A DNA stretch of 64,000 nt from Solibacillus sp. FSL H8-0538. Lineage in GTDB: Bacteria > Bacillota > Bacilli > Bacillales_A > Planococcaceae. This document shows positions 38,041 through 50,495 of this stretch, piece by piece. The notes beneath the pieces are model-generated. The model worked only from the letters and a program-made list of their open reading frames with translations. It had not been told where the DNA came from and ran no database searches. Location: the NCBI RefSeq assembly GCF_038003525.1, contig NZ_JBBOPI010000001.1:2595001-2659000 (forward strand), in the 5' to 3' direction. A program made the position numbers and the translations under genes. The first letter of the stretch is position 1. The number at the start of each line of letters is the position of its first letter.

Positions 38041-39546
38041 TTATTCCATTACCACTACTAGTTCATTCATTGAGTATTGATCTTTGCCAGCCTCTTTCGA
38101 TTGGTACAGTGCTAGGTCTGCACGTACATATAAATCTATTTCCTTTTCGTTCGGATCGGTACTAATGGCACCACCCATACTTACTGACAAGTACGCCCAA
38201 ACATCCGTTTCCTGCGTCTGATACTTGAAGCTACGAATTTTCCGTAAGACTGCGTTGGCGATGCGTTCAAGTTGCTGCTCGTTCACATTATTTACAACAA
38301 TACCAAACTCGTCTCCACCTAACCGAACTACAAAGCCATTATTGCCAATCACTTTTGCGAGTGCATCCGCAGTGTCGATTAGCACCTTGTCCCCTACAGC
38401 ATGGCCAAAGCGATCATTTGCTAGCTTAAAGTTATCCAAGTCCACTAGCAATAAACCCGGGGTATTCTCTTTACGTTTACTTAATAATCGCTCGATTTTC
38501 GCCAAATAAGTTGCTCGGTTATACGCACCTGTAAGCGGGTCATACGTTGCTAAATTAATCGTTTTCGATAAAATTTTCGTAATAACAATCAGTAAAATTA
38601 GCGCTGTAATTAAGGATACTACGACTAAAAATATCATTTGTTGCGTATTTTGAGCAAGTGCAGCAAGCTCTGTTTTATTTCCGTATTTTATGTAAACAAT
38701 GCGTTTTGAGGACTCCCCGCGAATCGTTTCTGCCTCATATGGTAGGAATCGATATGTTTCCTTGTAACCATCCCCAATATCGACCACATACTGCGTAGGT
38801 TTCATCGTTTTCTTTGCTAGCTCAAAGTGCTCTTGAAAATTCTTTGGCATATCTACCACACTAATGCGTTGATGTCCAGTTTCGCCTAAGAAAACCCCAC
38901 CTTTATTAATTGTTTGTACTTCTAGTAAATCACTGTATTTCTCAATTAAATAGTTTGCAGTTTTCACAAAATTAAATGTTTGAAAAACCGGTACATCATT
39001 TAAATTTACACCAAGCTCTAGCAAATATTTATGATCGCTCGTCGCTAAATAGCTAAACTTACGTATTTCTCCAGTCGTTGTTGAAACATCAATGCCATCT
39101 GTATAATATTTCCCATCTGCACGACGTTCATCTAATAATTTTGCAAAGACCGAACAGCATTCTGAAAAATTTAACCCTAAATCCTGCTTAAACGTTGTTT
39201 TTACAACTGCATTTTTCTCATCCAATATATAAATATCCATGCCATGCTCTGCGCTAAGTTCTTCTAAATCCCATGATTCAATATCGTTATTACGATCATA
39301 AAGTTCTTTTAGGGCTTGCAATTCCTTCTGCATCTCATTGGAAACCGTTTTATCAAAATAATAATGTGCATTATCGACCGTTTGCATATCGATTAATATA
39401 TGTTTTTCAATGAGCTCCCGGCTTTGTGCCTCTTGTGCTTCAATATTTGTAATTAAAATTTGTCGATTCACATAGGATATTACTGCAACTAAAACTAAAG
39501 CAAATGTCATTAACGAAATAAATAATTTAAACCGAAGCTTTCTCAT
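38041..39546 (-). CDS. Membrane diguanylate cyclase with extracellular sensor
   Basis: A predicted c-di-GMP synthase of 501 residues. A transmembrane helix (~7-27) is followed by a ~270-residue extracellular region with Cache-like character (Y-I-L-D-E-K-N-A-V-V-K-T-T), a second helix (~305-327) and a cytoplasmic GGDEF domain from ~335. The active motif G-G-D-E-F is intact, preceded by D-P-L-T-G-A-Y-N-R. The allosteric RxxD inhibitory site upstream of GGDEF is absent (G-N-N-G-F-V-V-R-L). The ligand of the sensor is unknown. It precedes an exopolysaccharide-like locus 2.5 kb away. Confidence 0.88.
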   Translation of the reverse strand: MRKLRFKLFISLMTFALVLVAVISYVNRQILITNIEAQEAQSRELIEKHILIDMQTVDNAHYYFDKTVSNEMQKELQALKELYDRNNDIESWDLEELSAEHGMDIYILDEKNAVVKTTFKQDLGLNFSECCSVFAKLLDERRADGKYYTDGIDVSTTTGEIRKFSYLATSDHKYLLELGVNLNDVPVFQTFNFVKTANYLIEKYSDLLEVQTINKGGVFLGETGHQRISVVDMPKNFQEHFELAKKTMKPTQYVVDIGDGYKETYRFLPYEAETIRGESSKRIVYIKYGNKTELAALAQNTQQMIFLVVVSLITALILLIVITKILSKTINLATYDPLTGAYNRATYLAKIERLLSKRKENTPGLLLVDLDNFKLANDRFGHAVGDKVLIDTADALAKVIGNNGFVVRLGGDEFGIVVNNVNEQQLERIANAVLRKIRSFKYQTQETDVWAYLSVSMGGAISTDPNEKEIDLYVRADLALYQSKEAGKDQYSMNELVVVME

Positions 39547-43427: not shown

Positions 43428-44284
43428 TTATCCTCCAATTTTTGAATAAGCCTTAACGTAATCGATATCAAAAGAAGAAGGAAAAGGTGTAAGACTGTCA
43501 GGATTCCCTGGCCAATTTCCACCAATAGCTAAATTAATAATCAGATACATCGGTTCATCCGGTACGCCCTATTTGCTTGTAAAAACCAGTTCGTCGTCCA
43601 CATACCATCGAAGTTCATGTTTATTGCATTCAATAACATAATTATGAAAGTCTAAAAAGGAAGGGAGAGAATAGGTTTTAGAGTAGCTGCCTAATTTCCC
43701 ACTAGATTCTGTATGATTCACCACATAAATCTTAGATGGGTCGTTGCCAACTACTTCAAAAACATCAATTTCCAGAAGGGTTTTATTTTCGCAGCGGGAA
43801 GGAGCCAAATAGCTGGGAACAAACCTTGCCCCGCAGGAAAATTCACTCTTATTTCAATCCTATTATTTTTGAAGTTTTTCTTTTGAAATGTAGTAATCTG
43901 TCCAGAGGTATATTGATGATTCTTATAGGATTCCTTTTATCCAGTTAAATGAAGAATTCCAACTTGGACTTGGCTATTTTCTTCTTTATAAAACTGAAGT
44001 TCATTGTTGTAATTGTTGTCTTTTTCCATAAAGCTCCATTTGTAAATCGAATGATTGGCATCATCAAAAGTGTCTTTCCATACCTTTCTCCACGTACCAC
44101 TCTCGGTCGTTTTAACCTCTTCCGACTGACTATCTGGGATTTGGTCATCAAAACCTTTTTCACTATATAAATTCCCATTCATTGTTTCTGTAACATCGTT
44201 TTTATTTTCTTGATATAACGTGAATTTTACGATTCCAAAACTTACAACAATGGAAGTCATGAATACAAAAAGAGTAGCTCCCAT
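43428..44284 (-). pseudogene. GH16 beta-glucanase-like gene, frameshifted and interrupted
   Basis: Spliced across frames this encodes a ~285-residue membrane-anchored GH16 hydrolase. An N-terminal helix (V-F-M-T-S-I-V-V-S-F-G-I-V) and T-W-R-K-V-W-K-D-T-F-D are in the first frame; Y-T-S-G-Q-I-T-T and P-A-G-Q-G-L-F-P-A-I-W-L-L-P in a second; the catalytic E-I-D-V-F-E, then V-V-N-H-T-E-S and D-F-H-N-Y-V-I-E in a third. A TAG after V-F-T-S-K (43569-43571) then interrupts the frame, which continues P-M-Y-L-I-I-N-L-A-I-G-G-N-W-P-G to a stop at 43428. At least two frameshifts and one nonsense codon make it inactive. The terminal region overlaps the GT2 ribosome site. Confidence 0.85.
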
Positions 44285-44460
44285 AAGATATCCCCTCCAT
44301 AAAGAGCAGAGATTCCCATTTTCTAAAGGGCATATTTACCCTTCCACAATCTTAATACCTATTTTTATAGCGGTCAAAGGTAAGTATTTCATTTTTTAAC
44401 ATATAAATTTATAATAAAATCATATATTTATTATCTCTTTGTTTTACCGAGGGAATTTAC

Positions 44461-44487
44461 ATTAGAAAGTTATACTTTCTTATCTAC
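44461..44487. repeat. Terminator-linked repeat, minimal copy
   Basis: Only ATTAGAAAGTTATACTTTCT then TATCTAC remain: the 5' end is fused to the second palindrome, and the first palindrome is lost. It abuts the U-tract of the next terminator. With the copy at 18020, which lacks the other palindrome, it shows that the element is modular. Confidence 0.75.
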
Positions 44488-44516
44488 AAAAAAAATAACC
44501 AGGAGATCCTGGTTAT
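44488..44516 (-). terminator. Terminator of the secreted GH16 gene
   Basis: Minus strand: ATAACCAGG and CCTGGTTAT around a 4-nt loop, followed by TTTTTTTT, ~80 nt after the stop at 44597. Confidence 0.85.
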
Positions 44517-44596
44517 CCGTTACTAAAAAACTATTTTGTTCTATGTAAATCTTATGTCCTCATAACTTCATTTCACAAAATCCTTAAAAAAAGGAT

Positions 44597-45361
44597 TCAA
44601 TATGGAGTAAATACGAACCGATCGATAATAATCTCTGCAGATTTTTTATTCATTGGTGCCTTTCCTTCAAACTGCCAGAAATTTATATGTACTTTCTCAT
44701 TCTTACTATCTGGTATATCTTTTCCCTTGTAGGACCAATTTTTTAATAAGCTCGAATTCCCTGGATTTTTAAATGACTTATGTCCATATGATTTAAAATT
44801 TATGCTCTTTTGTGTCCATGTAAAACTATGGGTAGAATAGTTACTATTTAGTTTTGTTGAAAATGCAAGAAAATTTTCTGGCATTGTGTATGGGAGAACT
44901 GTATAAGAGCTATTCAGTCCATTTACTTGTCCCCATTTGGCAAATTCAATATCAATTTCTCTATATTTCTTCTCTTTTACATCCTCAGAATCTTCATCAT
45001 AAGTAAACAAACCTAATACAAGGTTTGGATCTAACTTATCTGGGCGCCCAGTAATTAAAAAACGATACGTACCATACCCTAAAGTTTTTTCATTTATTAG
45101 TTCAGTGCTATACCATTTACCGTTCCGCTTAACGACTTTTAGATGTAGCCTGCCTCGGCTGTCTACCCATACATCTCTCTTATCGGATGACCAATAGTTC
45201 TGTCCAGGTCCCCACTTGCTCGTACCTGAATTTTTCACTGTCCAAGTATACCCACTCCATTCGATCGTTTTTTGATCCTTGGCCAGAACGTGTTCGACTA
45301 AAATCAGAATAGGGAAGGCAGTTAATAATGCAAGCAAAATTTTTCTCCAGTATTTCTTCAT
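44597..45361 (-). CDS. Secreted GH16-family glycoside hydrolase
   Basis: A 254-residue exported protein with a signal peptide (K-K-Y-W-R-K-I-L-L-A-L-L-T-A-F-P-I-L-I-L, cleavage probably near VLA-KD). The fold is the GH16 beta-jelly roll. The catalytic signature R-E-I-D-I-E-F-A-K-W-G (~136-146) contains the nucleophile and acid/base glutamates in the E-I-D-I-E arrangement of lichenase-like enzymes, and S-T-H-S-F-T-W-T-Q and I-N-F-W-Q-F-E-G follow. The ATG at 45361 is supported by GAGGG 7 nt upstream; the TTG two codons earlier overlaps it. It probably trims the polymer of the adjacent GT2 synthase; this is inference from position. Confidence 0.82.
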   Translation of the reverse strand: MKKYWRKILLALLTAFPILILVEHVLAKDQKTIEWSGYTWTVKNSGTSKWGPGQNYWSSDKRDVWVDSRGRLHLKVVKRNGKWYSTELINEKTLGYGTYRFLITGRPDKLDPNLVLGLFTYDEDSEDVKEKKYREIDIEFAKWGQVNGLNSSYTVLPYTMPENFLAFSTKLNSNYSTHSFTWTQKSINFKSYGHKSFKNPGNSSLLKNWSYKGKDIPDSKNEKVHINFWQFEGKAPMNKKSAEIIIDRFVFTPY

Positions 45362-45545
45362 ATCCAATCCCTCATCTTTCTTTACAGCACTTTATTGTGT
45401 ATAAGAGCTCTCCTTATTTATATCGGAAAAATTTTAAGATGATTAGATGTCTACGGTTAATTTTGTTATCTTTTTCTTATTTTTTCTCGATTCATACACA
45501 CAAATGTCAAAAAGAGATTATTTAATACAATTATTTTCCACTAAT
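45362..45545. other. Upstream region of the GH16 gene
   Basis: AT-rich, with no gene seen. It should contain the promoter of the secreted GH16 gene. Confidence 0.35.
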
Positions 45546-45587
45546 AAAGGTGTAGATGAAATCAGTAGTTGATTCATCTACACCTTT
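45546..45587. terminator. Strong hairpin between GH16 and PAS-GGDEF genes
   Basis: A 15-bp perfect stem (AAAGGTGTAGATGAA with its complement), followed by T on the plus strand. It probably ends the rsbQ/PAS-GGDEF transcript, whose stop is ~170 bp away. Confidence 0.7.
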
Positions 45588-45759
45588 TAAATTGAACTGC
45601 TAATAAGTTTATTGTCTAACATAGTGGAGCCTATTCAATATCGCCTTTACTTTTGATACGGGTCTTCGTGTTTGGTCTGAAGCACGGCAACTCCTCAAAA
45701 ATGAAGACCCTCCCATTCTATATATGAACTATAGGCGCTTTCTTCTAGTGCGATTTCAT

Positions 45760-46740
45760 TTATTTTAGCTCTCTATAATGTGTGGCGCGATTTCTACCAT
45801 TTTCCTTAGAAGCATAGAGTGCTTGATCTGCCTTGCTTATAATTAACGCTTCTGAATCCTGTTCAATAAATGTCGCTACACCCACACTCACGGTTAAACT
45901 ACCTGTTTCTGTCCATTCCGCTCTTTCAACCTCTTGATTTAACTTCTGAGCAATAAATATGGCTGCATCCTCATCCGTATTCGGCAGAATTATTACGAAT
46001 TCCTCACCACCAAATCGCGCCGCAACATCATCCGGTCGCGCTTGCTTTTTTAAAATGTTTGCTAATTTCACAAGGACAATATCTCCAATTTGGTGGCCAT
46101 ATGTATCGTTCACTTTTTTGAAATGATCAATATCAATAATAAGTAGAGAGAACGTATTTTGTTCTTTATAGTACAATTCAATCTGCTCTTCTAGCTTTTC
46201 TTGGAAGAATCTTCTGTTTGGTATACCCGTGAGCTTATCTGTATTCGATATTTCAACTAACCCTGAATTAATTTCCATCAGCTCAATCTGTTTCTTTTCA
46301 ATTTCAAGATAGATTTGTTCTAGTTTTTCAAAAGCTAGATTCTTTTCTAAATAGGCCTCTTCCATTTGTTTTTTAGTCGAACGTAATTCTAACTCATAAC
46401 CAATTCGCCGCTTCATTTGAACTAAAACACAGTCAATTATTTCTATACCATCCAGCTCAAATCGTCTTGCATTCATCAAATAAGGAACGGACTCTCCCAT
46501 TTGGTTTTTACAATTAATGAATAGCTCTTCGACATGCCCATATAAATTAATATTAGGATAAAAATAAGAATGAAAAACCAGCTTATTCCCCGTCGTCAAT
46601 AACAGTTCAAAATGCTTTCCTATTAAATTCTCTTGCTTGTAGCCCATCCATTCTAGCAAGGTATTATTGACCTCGAGAATATAGCCATTTTGGTCAATTG
46701 TTAGGAACCCACAAGGCGCCTCTCTTAATCGTTCATCCAT
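45760..46740 (-). CDS. PAS-GGDEF diguanylate cyclase paired with RsbQ-like hydrolase
   Basis: A cytoplasmic 326-residue protein. An N-terminal PAS domain (~1-115: A-P-C-G-F-L-T-I-D-Q-N-G-Y-I-L-E-V-N, then G-K-H-F-E-L-L-L-T) is similar in style to the PAS domain of RsbP. A coiled-coil linker (~120-165) joins it to a GGDEF domain with D-K-L-T-G-I-P-N-R-R and the active G-G-E-E-F. An RxxD inhibitory site (R-P-D-D) lies five residues before GGEEF. It is predicted to make c-di-GMP. The gene starts 21 bp after the rsbQ stop and is co-transcribed with it, replacing the PAS-phosphatase rsbP that accompanies rsbQ in B. subtilis. Confidence 0.88.
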   Translation of the reverse strand: MDERLREAPCGFLTIDQNGYILEVNNTLLEWMGYKQENLIGKHFELLLTTGNKLVFHSYFYPNINLYGHVEELFINCKNQMGESVPYLMNARRFELDGIEIIDCVLVQMKRRIGYELELRSTKKQMEEAYLEKNLAFEKLEQIYLEIEKKQIELMEINSGLVEISNTDKLTGIPNRRFFQEKLEEQIELYYKEQNTFSLLIIDIDHFKKVNDTYGHQIGDIVLVKLANILKKQARPDDVAARFGGEEFVIILPNTDEDAAIFIAQKLNQEVERAEWTETGSLTVSVGVATFIEQDSEALIISKADQALYASKENGRNRATHYRELK

Positions 46741-46761
46741 AATTGATCTCCCTTTTATAAA

Positions 46762-47562
46762 TTAATTGCTAAGATAATCGATAATAATTTTAGTTGTTTC
46801 TAAAGGCTGACTAATATGCGGATAATGCCCTCTTGCATCTATGGTTTGAAGCGTACTATTTTGTAAATGCTTATTTAAATATTGTCCTACTTCTATTGGA
46901 ACGATGCTATCATTCGCGCATTGAATAATTAGTGTAGGTACCTTTACTAATGGTACACTCGCACGATAATCTGAAAAGAATGTTACCTCCGCAAATTCCC
47001 TTGCTATACGCGGGTTCGTTGAGACAAAACTATTCTCTAGTTCTTGCGTTAACTTAGAATCCTTAGGTTGGTCCATCGCAAATGGGGCCATATAGCTTGC
47101 CCATCCTGCAAAATTCATCTCCATCATAGCAAGTAATTCTTTAATATCATTTAGTTCAAAACCACCAACATAACCGTCTGTATCATTTAAATAACAAGGC
47201 GATGGCCCAATCATAATTAACTTTTCGAAGTAATCCGGTCGCTCAATCGCAGCTAGCATACCAATCATCGAACTAATAGAATGACCTATGAATAGTACAT
47301 GTTGAAGATCCATTTCTTCGATTATATCAAGGACATCCTGCATATAACCTTTAAGCGTACTATATTTTTCAGATTGGTACGAAGTGATATCTGAATTTCC
47401 TGACCCTACATAATCAAATAAAATAACTCTATAGTTCTCTGCAAATTTAGGAGCGATATATTGCCACATGCTCTGATCACACCCAAATCCATGTGCAAAA
47501 ATAACCGTTTGTTCTCCCTGGCCCATCATCTTTACATTATTTCGTTTCATCACATCATTCAT
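46762..47562 (-). CDS. rsbQ: RsbQ-like alpha/beta hydrolase
   Basis: The 266-residue protein closely follows B. subtilis RsbQ, a serine hydrolase that activates the phosphatase RsbP on energy stress. Shared segments include H-G-F-G-C-D-Q-S-M-W, V-I-L-F-D-Y-V-G-S-G, M-I-G-P-S-P-C-Y-L-N-D and F-F-S-D-Y-R. The triad is S95 (G-H-S-I-S), D218 (A-N-D) and H246 (R-G-H-Y-P-H). The start at 47562 has AAGGTGGGG upstream; a GTG four codons earlier overlaps that site. RsbQ is related to plant KAI2/D14 receptors and binds small hydrophobic ligands. Here its operon partner is a PAS-GGDEF protein. Confidence 0.9.
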   Translation of the reverse strand: MNDVMKRNNVKMMGQGEQTVIFAHGFGCDQSMWQYIAPKFAENYRVILFDYVGSGNSDITSYQSEKYSTLKGYMQDVLDIIEEMDLQHVLFIGHSISSMIGMLAAIERPDYFEKLIMIGPSPCYLNDTDGYVGGFELNDIKELLAMMEMNFAGWASYMAPFAMDQPKDSKLTQELENSFVSTNPRIAREFAEVTFFSDYRASVPLVKVPTLIIQCANDSIVPIEVGQYLNKHLQNSTLQTIDARGHYPHISQPLETTKIIIDYLSN

Positions 47563-47852
47563 AAAAATCCCCACCTTTTTCTAATTAATCTCCCTACATT
47601 TATTTTGAACGATTACTATTTAAATATCTAGTAAAATTTTACTATTTATATTCTTTCTAACGGAGTAAATATTTTTTCTTTTGTTCATTGTTCTGCATCT
47701 GTAAAAGAATTACTTTCTCTTAATAAGAGTGACTTGGCTATATATTCATTTTTATAAAGCTTCATTCTTTAATAAAAAAAAACAGCCCACCACAATTGGC
47801 GAGGGCACTGAAAAACTTACGTTTTTTATGATGGTTTCGTTTTTCAAATAAG

Positions 47853-47895
47853 AATAAGGCACTTTCTGTTCGAATCGAACGGAAAGTGCCTTATT
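47853..47895 (-). terminator. Transposase terminator inside the IS1182 element
   Basis: AATAAGGCACTTTCTGTTCG pairs with CGAACGGAAAGTGCCTTATT-type arms (one mismatch) around a 3-nt loop, 15 nt after the transposase stop. Confidence 0.8.
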
Positions 47896-47909
47896 TCTTT
47901 GTCTATTAC

Positions 47910-49370
47910 TTACACTTTTTCATTTAGCAGTTTCAATATTCGTTTGAGATTCACCGCAAATATCGTTGTGGCACCTTGGATTTGCATGCCAAATAAACCC
48001 GCTGATATGGCTGTTTTATAGCCATGCGGATTTTTTAATTCACTATTTTTCGCCTCTATTTTATAACGGTTTTTCGCAAGCTGTTTAAATGCATCAGTTT
48101 CTTGGAAAGCAGCTTGTTCTTCATGTTCAATTGATTTAATGGTCACATTATAGGTTTTACTTTTTGCCTCATCCTTATAACAGCCCTCACGCATCTGGCA
48201 GACTTTACATTTTTCAATATCAAAATAAAATGCCATTTTCGGATTTTTATTCTTATTTTTATTCTTAGAAAGTGCCTTTCGAATAGCTAGATGCCCAGCT
48301 GGACAGACAAACATACCAGCATCTTTATTGTAATCAAATTCGATTTTTCGTTGTCCGCTACCGTTTGTAATGACTGAATTTAACTTTGAAATTAATTGGA
48401 GCTCTTTTGATTTAGCATATTGTAAGTTATCTTTCGCAGAATAAGCGGCGTCACCAATCACCGTTTCAATTTCCATACCTGCCTCTTTACTTTTTTCAAC
48501 TAGTTCTTGAAGATAATGACCATCACTTTTTTCACCTGTTGTCACAACCGCAGCCGTAATAATTCGTTCATCACTCATCGCAATATGCGTTTTGAAACCA
48601 AAGAAAGCCGAGTCAGCCGACTTATGTCCAACCCGCGCATCGGGATCATTTGAATAGCTTAACTGATTCTCATAATCATCAATCACTTCTTTTAAAACAT
48701 TTAATTTTTCTTTCACAGCCGGGATTTGTGCAACCTTTGATTGCGTTTCCACCACTTCAACTACTTGACGACAGTAATCTAATTCTTCTGTGACTTCATT
48801 TGACGTAGGCTTCTCAGGGAATTTTCCAACCATGTTTTCGTCGAGTTGATACACGGCTTTACGTACATTTTTAGATTTTTCCTGTAAAAATTCTTTTGGC
48901 GATTTTTGATTATAACGAGCCTTTGTATGGGTAGCGTCAACGATGACCATTTTACTTAGTAGTAGCCCTTTTTCTAAGGCAATTTCAACTGTTTTCTGAA
49001 TCAGTAAATCTATTAAATTCACATCTTGGAGACGAAGTCGACGGAATTTTGTCAGTGAACTTGAATCGATTACATCATCTTCTGGTGCCATCTCTAAAAA
49101 ATATTTAAAGGACATATCGTATTTTGAACGCTCGACAAGGTCGGCATCCGATAGATCATGAATCACTTTTAATAGTAAATATTTAAACATACGAATCGGT
49201 GGAATCGCGTTACGGCCATTATCTAAACAGTATTTCGATTTTAGTTCGTCTAGAATAAATGAGAAATCCACAAGTTCATTAATTTGGCGAAGCATATTGT
49301 CCTTTGGGATAATTAAATCGTACAACGCCATGTACGGGCTCAAATTGAATGTTTCCTGTTTAGAAATCAT
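47910..49370 (-). CDS. IS1182-family transposase
   Basis: A 486-residue transposase with an N-terminal DUF772-type domain (S-P-Y-M-A-L-Y-D-L-I-I-P-K-D-N-M-L-R, then I-P-P-I-R-M-F-K-Y-L-L-L-K), a DDE core (V-I-V-D-A-T-H-T-K-A-R-Y for the first Asp; G-D-A-A-Y-S-A-K-D for the second; and the C-terminal Y-K-I-E-A-K-N-S-E-L-K containing the Glu) and a cysteine cluster C-x-x-C-x-x-R-E-G-C (~395). The start at 49370 has AGGTGG 7 nt upstream; the longer frame runs into the GC-rich repeat and lacks such a site. All catalytic motifs look intact. Confidence 0.92.
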   Translation of the reverse strand: MISKQETFNLSPYMALYDLIIPKDNMLRQINELVDFSFILDELKSKYCLDNGRNAIPPIRMFKYLLLKVIHDLSDADLVERSKYDMSFKYFLEMAPEDDVIDSSSLTKFRRLRLQDVNLIDLLIQKTVEIALEKGLLLSKMVIVDATHTKARYNQKSPKEFLQEKSKNVRKAVYQLDENMVGKFPEKPTSNEVTEELDYCRQVVEVVETQSKVAQIPAVKEKLNVLKEVIDDYENQLSYSNDPDARVGHKSADSAFFGFKTHIAMSDERIITAAVVTTGEKSDGHYLQELVEKSKEAGMEIETVIGDAAYSAKDNLQYAKSKELQLISKLNSVITNGSGQRKIEFDYNKDAGMFVCPAGHLAIRKALSKNKNKNKNPKMAFYFDIEKCKVCQMREGCYKDEAKSKTYNVTIKSIEHEEQAAFQETDAFKQLAKNRYKIEAKNSELKNPHGYKTAISAGLFGMQIQGATTIFAVNLKRILKLLNEKV

Positions 49371-49462
49371 GGTCGCACCACCTTTTATTAGTACTTTAAT
49401 TATACAAGAAATGTGTGCGATTATACGAGGGAAGAGCCCTTCTTGTGATGAAAGTAGTTCCA

Positions 49463-49587
49463 GTTGATTGGAATGGAGGCGGCGACTTCTGCGGGAACAG
49501 CACGAGCGGAAGCACCCGGACTGAGCGAAGCGAGGGAGAAGGCTGGAGCCGTGCCCGCGAAAAGCGTCCGCCGGAATGGAAATCAAC
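49463..49587. repeat. GC-rich palindromic-ended repeat inside the IS1182 element
   Basis: A 125-bp segment bounded by GTTGATT and AATCAAC, with further pairing of GGCGG and CCGCC just inside. It is much richer in GC than the IS or the chromosome. The GGAGGCGGCGACTTCTGCGGG motif (split here: GGAGGCGGCGA then CTTCTGCGGG) recalls dispersed intergenic repeats I know from Bacillus-type genomes. Confidence 0.6.
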
Positions 49588-49680
49588 GGCATCGAAGAAA
49601 AAAAGCGTCCAGTAACGAATTTCCGTTCTTGGACGCTCTTACTTATAGCTGAAGGACTTTTTCAGTGCCCTCCAATTGGC

Positions 49681-49818
49681 TAGACTGTTATCATTTAACA
49701 CTATTAAGGAGAACCTTACTTACTTATTAATCGGTTCACCGTAATGTATCTAAATGAGGGTTTTTTATAATATTTTTAAAGACTGGTTAAAATTATTAGG
49801 GTAAAAATCTATACTAGC
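49681..49818. other. Old 3' flank of the decayed gene
   Basis: Contains half of the reconstructed terminator hairpin (GGCTAGACTGTT at 49677-49688). Nothing else is recognised. Confidence 0.35.
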
Positions 49819-50082
49819 TTATTCATACCTATAAAACGGGTTAACATCGTCCCAAGCGTCCCTCATTTTAGTCTTAGGAAATTTGCCATTGTCCTCTTCC
49901 TTAGCAACGGTACATACGTAAAAATATTTATCCAACAACTCATAAACATTGAAGTATGTAAGTGTACCTTCGATTGCAGCATTAGTTATGATGTGAGGTA
50001 TATATTTTTAGAAAGCATATGTTCATAAATAAGTTTATTTCTTATATCTCCAGAAACTATTATTTCTTCCGCTTTTTTGTTA
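49819..50082 (-). pseudogene. Decayed unknown gene (C-terminal ~85 codons)
   Basis: Two minus-strand frames join into one protein-like sequence. The upstream piece reads ...E-E-I-I-V-S-G-D-I-R-N-K-L-I-Y-E-H-M-L-S-K-N-I-Y-L-T, then a frameshift near 50005, then P-H-I-I-T-N-A-A-I-E-G-T-L-T-Y-F-N-V-Y-E-L-L-D-K-Y-F-Y-V and on to F-Y-R-Y-E with a stop at 49819. No start codon with a ribosome site is found. The family is not recognised. The terminator-like hairpin hit by the IS1182 element lies ~130 bp downstream and was probably this gene's terminator. Confidence 0.5.
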
Positions 50083-50109
50083 TAAAATCGGACATGCTAT
50101 GTTTCTTGG

Positions 50110-50140
50110 AAAGGCCGTCTAAGACTGACGGTCTCTTTGT
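50110..50140 (+). terminator. Terminator-like hairpin
   Basis: AAAGGCCGTC and GACGGTCTCTTT around TAAGACT, followed by GTTTT. No complete gene lies upstream on the plus strand, so it may be a relic. Confidence 0.5.
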
Positions 50141-50495
50141 TTTATTTATGTCTGAAAAACTCAAGCTAATTATAGGTTTATCCTTTTTTTGAATTAGGCA
50201 TTAATTTCTGGTATAAAAGCTGATTTACAACAACTTTCGTATATATAGATAAAAGCACATACATGGGGTCAATAGAATCATATTTTATACAGAAGAAAAT
50301 AAAGATTCCGATGGATTATTGCATTAAAGACTAAAATGGATGAAAGCTAAACATTCATTAACAAAAAATTATATGCATTGACAACCACTCATTTTTCAAA
50401 AGACATCCTAATTAGTTCATGCACTGCAAGTTCGTAAAGATACGTACCCTAGGAGTTCTTATCATTCAAAAATTTAATTAAGGAGGAATTACAAT

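Follow-up and report, generated by a model that had tools for sequence, protein, structure and literature searches.

We propose that two adjacent minus-strand genes in the window, the 64,000-nucleotide stretch of Solibacillus sp. FSL H8-0538 DNA analysed here, form a two-gene RsbQ/RsbP-PAS sensory unit in which RsbQ binds a PAS domain and controls c-di-GMP synthesis through a diguanylate cyclase, a reading to which we give a probability of roughly 0.78. The RsbQ protein, a hydrolase of the KAI2/D14 type, would bind or turn over a small hydrophobic molecule and would directly contact the F-alpha region of the PAS domain, changing the PAS dimer. A long helix would then carry the change to the GGDEF domains and alter c-di-GMP synthesis, with feedback by the c-di-GMP product at an RPDD site. 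That RsbQ touches the PAS domain in the window pair is something we infer, such contact having been shown for the RsbQP proteins of B. subtilis, and RsbQ may either raise or lower c-di-GMP. Such modules have a precedent, since Nadezhdin, Brody and Price (2011; PMC3183031) described 45 rsbQ/PAS gene pairs whose outputs were a PP2C phosphatase, a histidine kinase or a diguanylate cyclase, the cyclase outputs occurring in both Gram-positive and Gram-negative bacteria. The window pair is a further member of that module, sharing with its cyclase form the gene order, the close spacing, the RsbQ triad, an N-terminal RsbP-type PAS domain with the class residues, the lack of a DIT motif, the helical linker and the GGDEF output. 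Nothing about it is different in kind; no relative in Lysinibacillus or Solibacillus is mentioned in the text of the 2011 paper, and the window genome is without sigma-B. The initial annotation had read the locus as a hydrolase gating a cyclase through a PAS domain, and that molecular reading is well supported, but the novelty it implied is not: systems of this type have been in print since 2011, and no other arrangement is as common in the Planococcaceae. Its further suggestions of an energy signal and a biofilm-type output gained no support here.

The first gene of the pair (46762-47562, minus strand) encodes an RsbQ-like alpha/beta hydrolase of 266 aa from an ATG start, an alternative GTG start being possible upstream at 47574. 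When the protein was compared with solved structures by phmmer, B. subtilis RsbQ (1wom) was the top match (E=4e-96, 52% identity across 264 aa), ahead of a bacterial homologue and, after it, the plant KAI2/D14 receptors, with E values down to ~1e-67. The triad S95/D218/H246 aligns with S96/D219/H247 of 1wom, and each of its members (S95, 47278-47280; D218, 46909-46911; H246, 46825-46827; all minus strand) is invariant across 23 diverse relatives. The pocket and gate residues F27, V97, F136 and F196 in RsbQ numbering correspond to F26, I96, F135 and F195 in the window protein, where I96 is a conservative change and the three phenylalanines are invariant in the alignment of 23 diverse RsbQ relatives. 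As judged from full-length similarity and the Ser-Asp-His triad, the hydrolase is a clear member of the RsbQ family, just as the initial annotation had described it. Its likeness to the karrikin and strigolactone receptors KAI2 and D14 is that of the same hydrolase family over near-full length with the same triad. The plant receptors signal via F-box and SMXL proteins, not through a PAS-GGDEF protein, and RsbQ is of interest as a bacterial relative of these receptors with a known signalling partner. In the literature we found no identified ligand of RsbQ for any bacterium.

The cyclase gene (45760-46740, minus strand) lies 21 bp downstream of rsbQ and encodes a PAS-helix-GGDEF protein of 326 aa, an organization given by Pfam and by an AlphaFold model (pLDDT 89.7, pTM 0.56). 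An RsbP-type PAS domain (residues 1-112, 46405-46740), recognized by residue matches to RsbP and by profile and matched by PAS_9 over residues 9-105 (E=2e-8), is joined to the GGDEF domain (residues 166-318, 45787-46245; PF00990, E=8e-48) by what is predicted to be a single, unbroken signalling helix of 57 residues (109-165, 46246-46416), all on the minus strand. The C-terminal output is thus GGDEF without a SpoIIE/PP2C domain, unlike that of RsbP. The active-site motif GGEEF (residues 244-248, 45997-46011, minus strand) is present in 43 of 43 aligned cyclase-type proteins, and the metal- and substrate-binding residues D203, N211 and D212 are intact and invariant. The inhibitory-site motif RPDD (residues 235-238, 46027-46038, minus strand) is an RxxD located five residues before GGEEF, as in the canonical I-site, and 23 of the 43 proteins have RxxD at the same position. 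The intact GGEEF, the RxxD site and the 21-bp spacing are all as first annotated. The protein therefore carries the intact motifs of an active diguanylate cyclase, from which we infer c-di-GMP as its product. Signalling by c-di-GMP is plausible in this genome because 19 GGDEF, about 12 EAL and 2 PilZ matches were found there. The window encodes another GGDEF protein (501 aa, 38041-39546) some 6 kb downstream of the pair.

The PAS domain is related to that of RsbP. Nine residues mark the PAS domains encoded next to RsbQ (PMC3183031), and the window domain has C10, L13, L48, K53 (basic in the consensus), Y59, E72 and P86, all numbered as in RsbP, along with the conserved P62. Its V55 and F56 agree with the hydrophobic/aromatic character of the class at 55/56. 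Like the RsbP-PAS class, it has no DIT motif, and it is the most N-terminal domain of a protein encoded directly downstream of rsbQ. It scored 165 bits with a PAS profile from which the window sequence had been left out and 86 bits with a profile made from nine PP2C-linked, RsbP-type PAS domains only. The RsbP-type profile matched no PAS domain in the other GGDEF proteins of the genome, among which the best score with the broad PAS profile was 17 bits. A PAS domain unrelated to RsbP, which would have spoken against the initial annotation, is therefore not what the gene encodes. Overall, the pair resembles B. subtilis RsbQ-RsbP in its hydrolase, 52% identical to RsbQ, and in a PAS domain that matches the RsbP-type profile at 86 bits; it differs in having a GGDEF in place of a PP2C output, V55/F56 in place of F55/C56, and a genome without sigma-B in place of the sigma-B pathway. 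In the PP2C-linked class as a whole, F55 is followed by C, I, M or (once) F at position 56, whereas in the cyclase-linked class position 55 is variable and F56 is near-invariant. Since the F55A mutation of RsbP disrupts RsbQ-PAS binding (PMC3183031), and since residue 55 is V here with F56 near-invariant, the RsbQ contact is possibly not identical in the cyclase class and may be shifted by one residue.

In the published two-hybrid experiments, the PAS domain was both necessary and sufficient for RsbQ binding (PMC3183031). That signalling needs both the RsbQ active site and the RsbQ-PAS contact was shown for B. subtilis RsbQP only. Within the open-access literature, we found no directly relevant work on RsbQ with GGDEF proteins or diguanylate cyclases beyond the 2011 paper, and no RsbQ/PAS-DGC pair with a measured ligand, binding or enzyme activity. 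Evolutionary distances offer some indication of such contact. RsbQ distance correlated with PAS distance given GGDEF at a partial r of 0.585 and with GGDEF distance given PAS at 0.376 (bootstrap difference 0.05-0.35, n=167), a stronger correlation with PAS being expected if RsbQ touches the PAS domain. This coevolution signal, in which shared phylogeny also plays a part, provides modest support for the contact.

The pair is widespread and held together. Within the Planococcaceae, 136 of 261 genomes carry rsbQ, and in a survey of 156 rsbQ genes (nearly all from this family, with a few other Bacillota and one genome counted twice) the following gene encoded a PAS-DGC in 128, a PAS-PP2C in 15, an RsbR-type STAS protein in 7, a PAS protein with a shortened frame in 3, and none or another product in 3, the median gap between rsbQ and the PAS-DGC gene being 7 bp. 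The textbook RsbQ-RsbP pair is thus the minority form in this survey, and the comparison of rsbQ neighbours that the initial annotation had called for shows the hydrolase-cyclase pair to be conserved. At 80 further named genomic loci, which partly overlap the 156-gene set, an adjacent PAS protein was found nearly everywhere: PAS-DGC partners in Paenibacillus, Lysinibacillus, Kurthia, Sporosarcina, Viridibacillus, Cohnella and others, GAF-GGDEF or GAF-kinase partners in Cyanobacteria (a DGC in several), and kinase partners in Acidobacteriota, Bacteroidota and Gemmatimonadota. The flanks in the window are wholly different from those in four close relatives, but the pair is kept together. Purifying selection acts on both genes, with a dN/dS against the two nearest relatives of ~0.11 in rsbQ and of 0.11-0.18 in the cyclase gene.

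These observations bear on whether RsbQ is a signalling protein here at all. Its fold is common to many metabolic hydrolases, and one could imagine an ordinary metabolic esterase that is merely co-transcribed with the cyclase; such an enzyme would hardly be expected to stay adjacent to its neighbour in nearly all relatives despite changing flanks, or to keep the pairing across phyla with different outputs. Direct RsbQ-PAS contact has been published (PMC3183031), and the protein matched no NCBIfam metabolic family at its cut-off, so that we consider this explanation very improbable. About as improbable is a module that still feeds sigma-B or some other PP2C pathway, with c-di-GMP as a side product. 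Sigma-B passed the profile cut-off in 70 of the 71 rsbQ-bearing family genomes tested, which would favour such a link, but the sole exception is the window's own genome (99.96% complete), where neither sigma-B nor rsbW was found over the cut-off and where the best sigma-B profile match is sigF inside the spoIIA operon. The only SpoIIE-type PP2Cs of this genome are one SpoIIE-sized protein and one receiver-PP2C, meaning that rsbP is absent as well and can be rejected as the true RsbQ partner elsewhere in the genome; an intact rsbP combined with a pair that is not conserved, against which the initial annotation had set its own reading, is the opposite of what we see. Because sigma-B, rsbW and rsbP are all missing, the module cannot feed sigma-B in this genome, yet the pair is under purifying selection, and the idea is contradicted here save for the case of a sigma-B too divergent for the profile to recognize. 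Having the RsbQ-PAS-cyclase pair but no sigma-B, such a genome offers a simple setting for reading the RsbQ signal as c-di-GMP, free of the stress-response background.

How RsbQ would act on the PAS domain is a finer question within the main reading. Two models were proposed in PMC3183031, one in which RsbQ delivers a product to the PAS domain (Model 1) and one in which it serves as a receptor (Model 2), and the same authors noted that the assumption of energy sensing by the module was without experimental support. In the receptor version, RsbQ would be the primary sensor, with ligand occupancy altering a standing RsbQ-PAS complex and hydrolysis acting as a timer or being unneeded. We place this narrower version somewhat below even odds. 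It draws on the homology of RsbQ to plant KAI2/D14 (E down to ~1e-67), on the invariant pocket residues F26, F135 and F195, and on its earlier proposal in PMC3183031, but the triad is intact in 23 of 23 aligned relatives, just as one would expect were catalysis to supply the PAS domain with a product, and sequence cannot separate the two. Control of a cyclase by RsbQ through its PAS domain, the reading we prefer, embraces both.

It is tempting to speculate that in Bacillales c-di-GMP was the original output of RsbQ-PAS and that RsbP control of sigma-B is a derived output swap, although we regard this as rather unlikely. If true, the window species, having kept the module without sigma-B, would be a natural demonstration of RsbQ signalling independent of the general stress response. 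A quick tree, unrooted and lacking B. subtilis RsbQ, was built from 136 RsbQ proteins; in it the PP2C-linked proteins formed one supported group among the cyclase-linked ones, and so did the RsbR-linked proteins. The RsbR-linked genes belong to a second rsbQ type found in one genus (g12), which is directly followed by a gene for an RsbR-type STAS protein of 284-295 aa (stressosome class; best PDB matches RsbR, E=1e-28). They are located at L073:1497-5177 (minus strand), L070, L086, L143, L156, L179 and L181, and at L073 a single strand carries, in this order, rsbQ1, PAS-DGC, rsbQ2 and an rsbR-like gene. The three outputs reported in the 2011 survey do not include this STAS partner, whose RsbQs are one group nested in the cyclase-linked RsbQs. 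The RsbQ at another locus (L188; record title Neobacillus vireti DSM 15602) shares 89% identity with that of the window; since this exceeds the identity of the nearest family members, it suggests horizontal transfer or a mislabelled record. The PAS frame at that locus is seemingly interrupted near its start.

As for expression of the pair, an Rfam scan of 44000-50400 found no riboswitch, and a promoter scan for the rsbQ/cyclase pair gave no site above chance. A perfect palindrome, TAGTAAAATTTTACTA, lies upstream of rsbQ at 47629-47644 and is nearly preserved in just the two closest relatives; across the family, the regions upstream of rsbQ show no enrichment for it, and it was set aside. Farther upstream, 238 bp from the rsbQ start, is an insertion sequence (47793-49680) with 15-bp terminal inverted repeats (47801-47815 and 49658-49672), a transposase gene at 47910-49592 on the minus strand, and an 8-bp flanking repeat, CAATTGGC. 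Because this flanking repeat is perfect, it suggests a fairly recent insertion, one that appears to have left the nearest upstream region of rsbQ intact.
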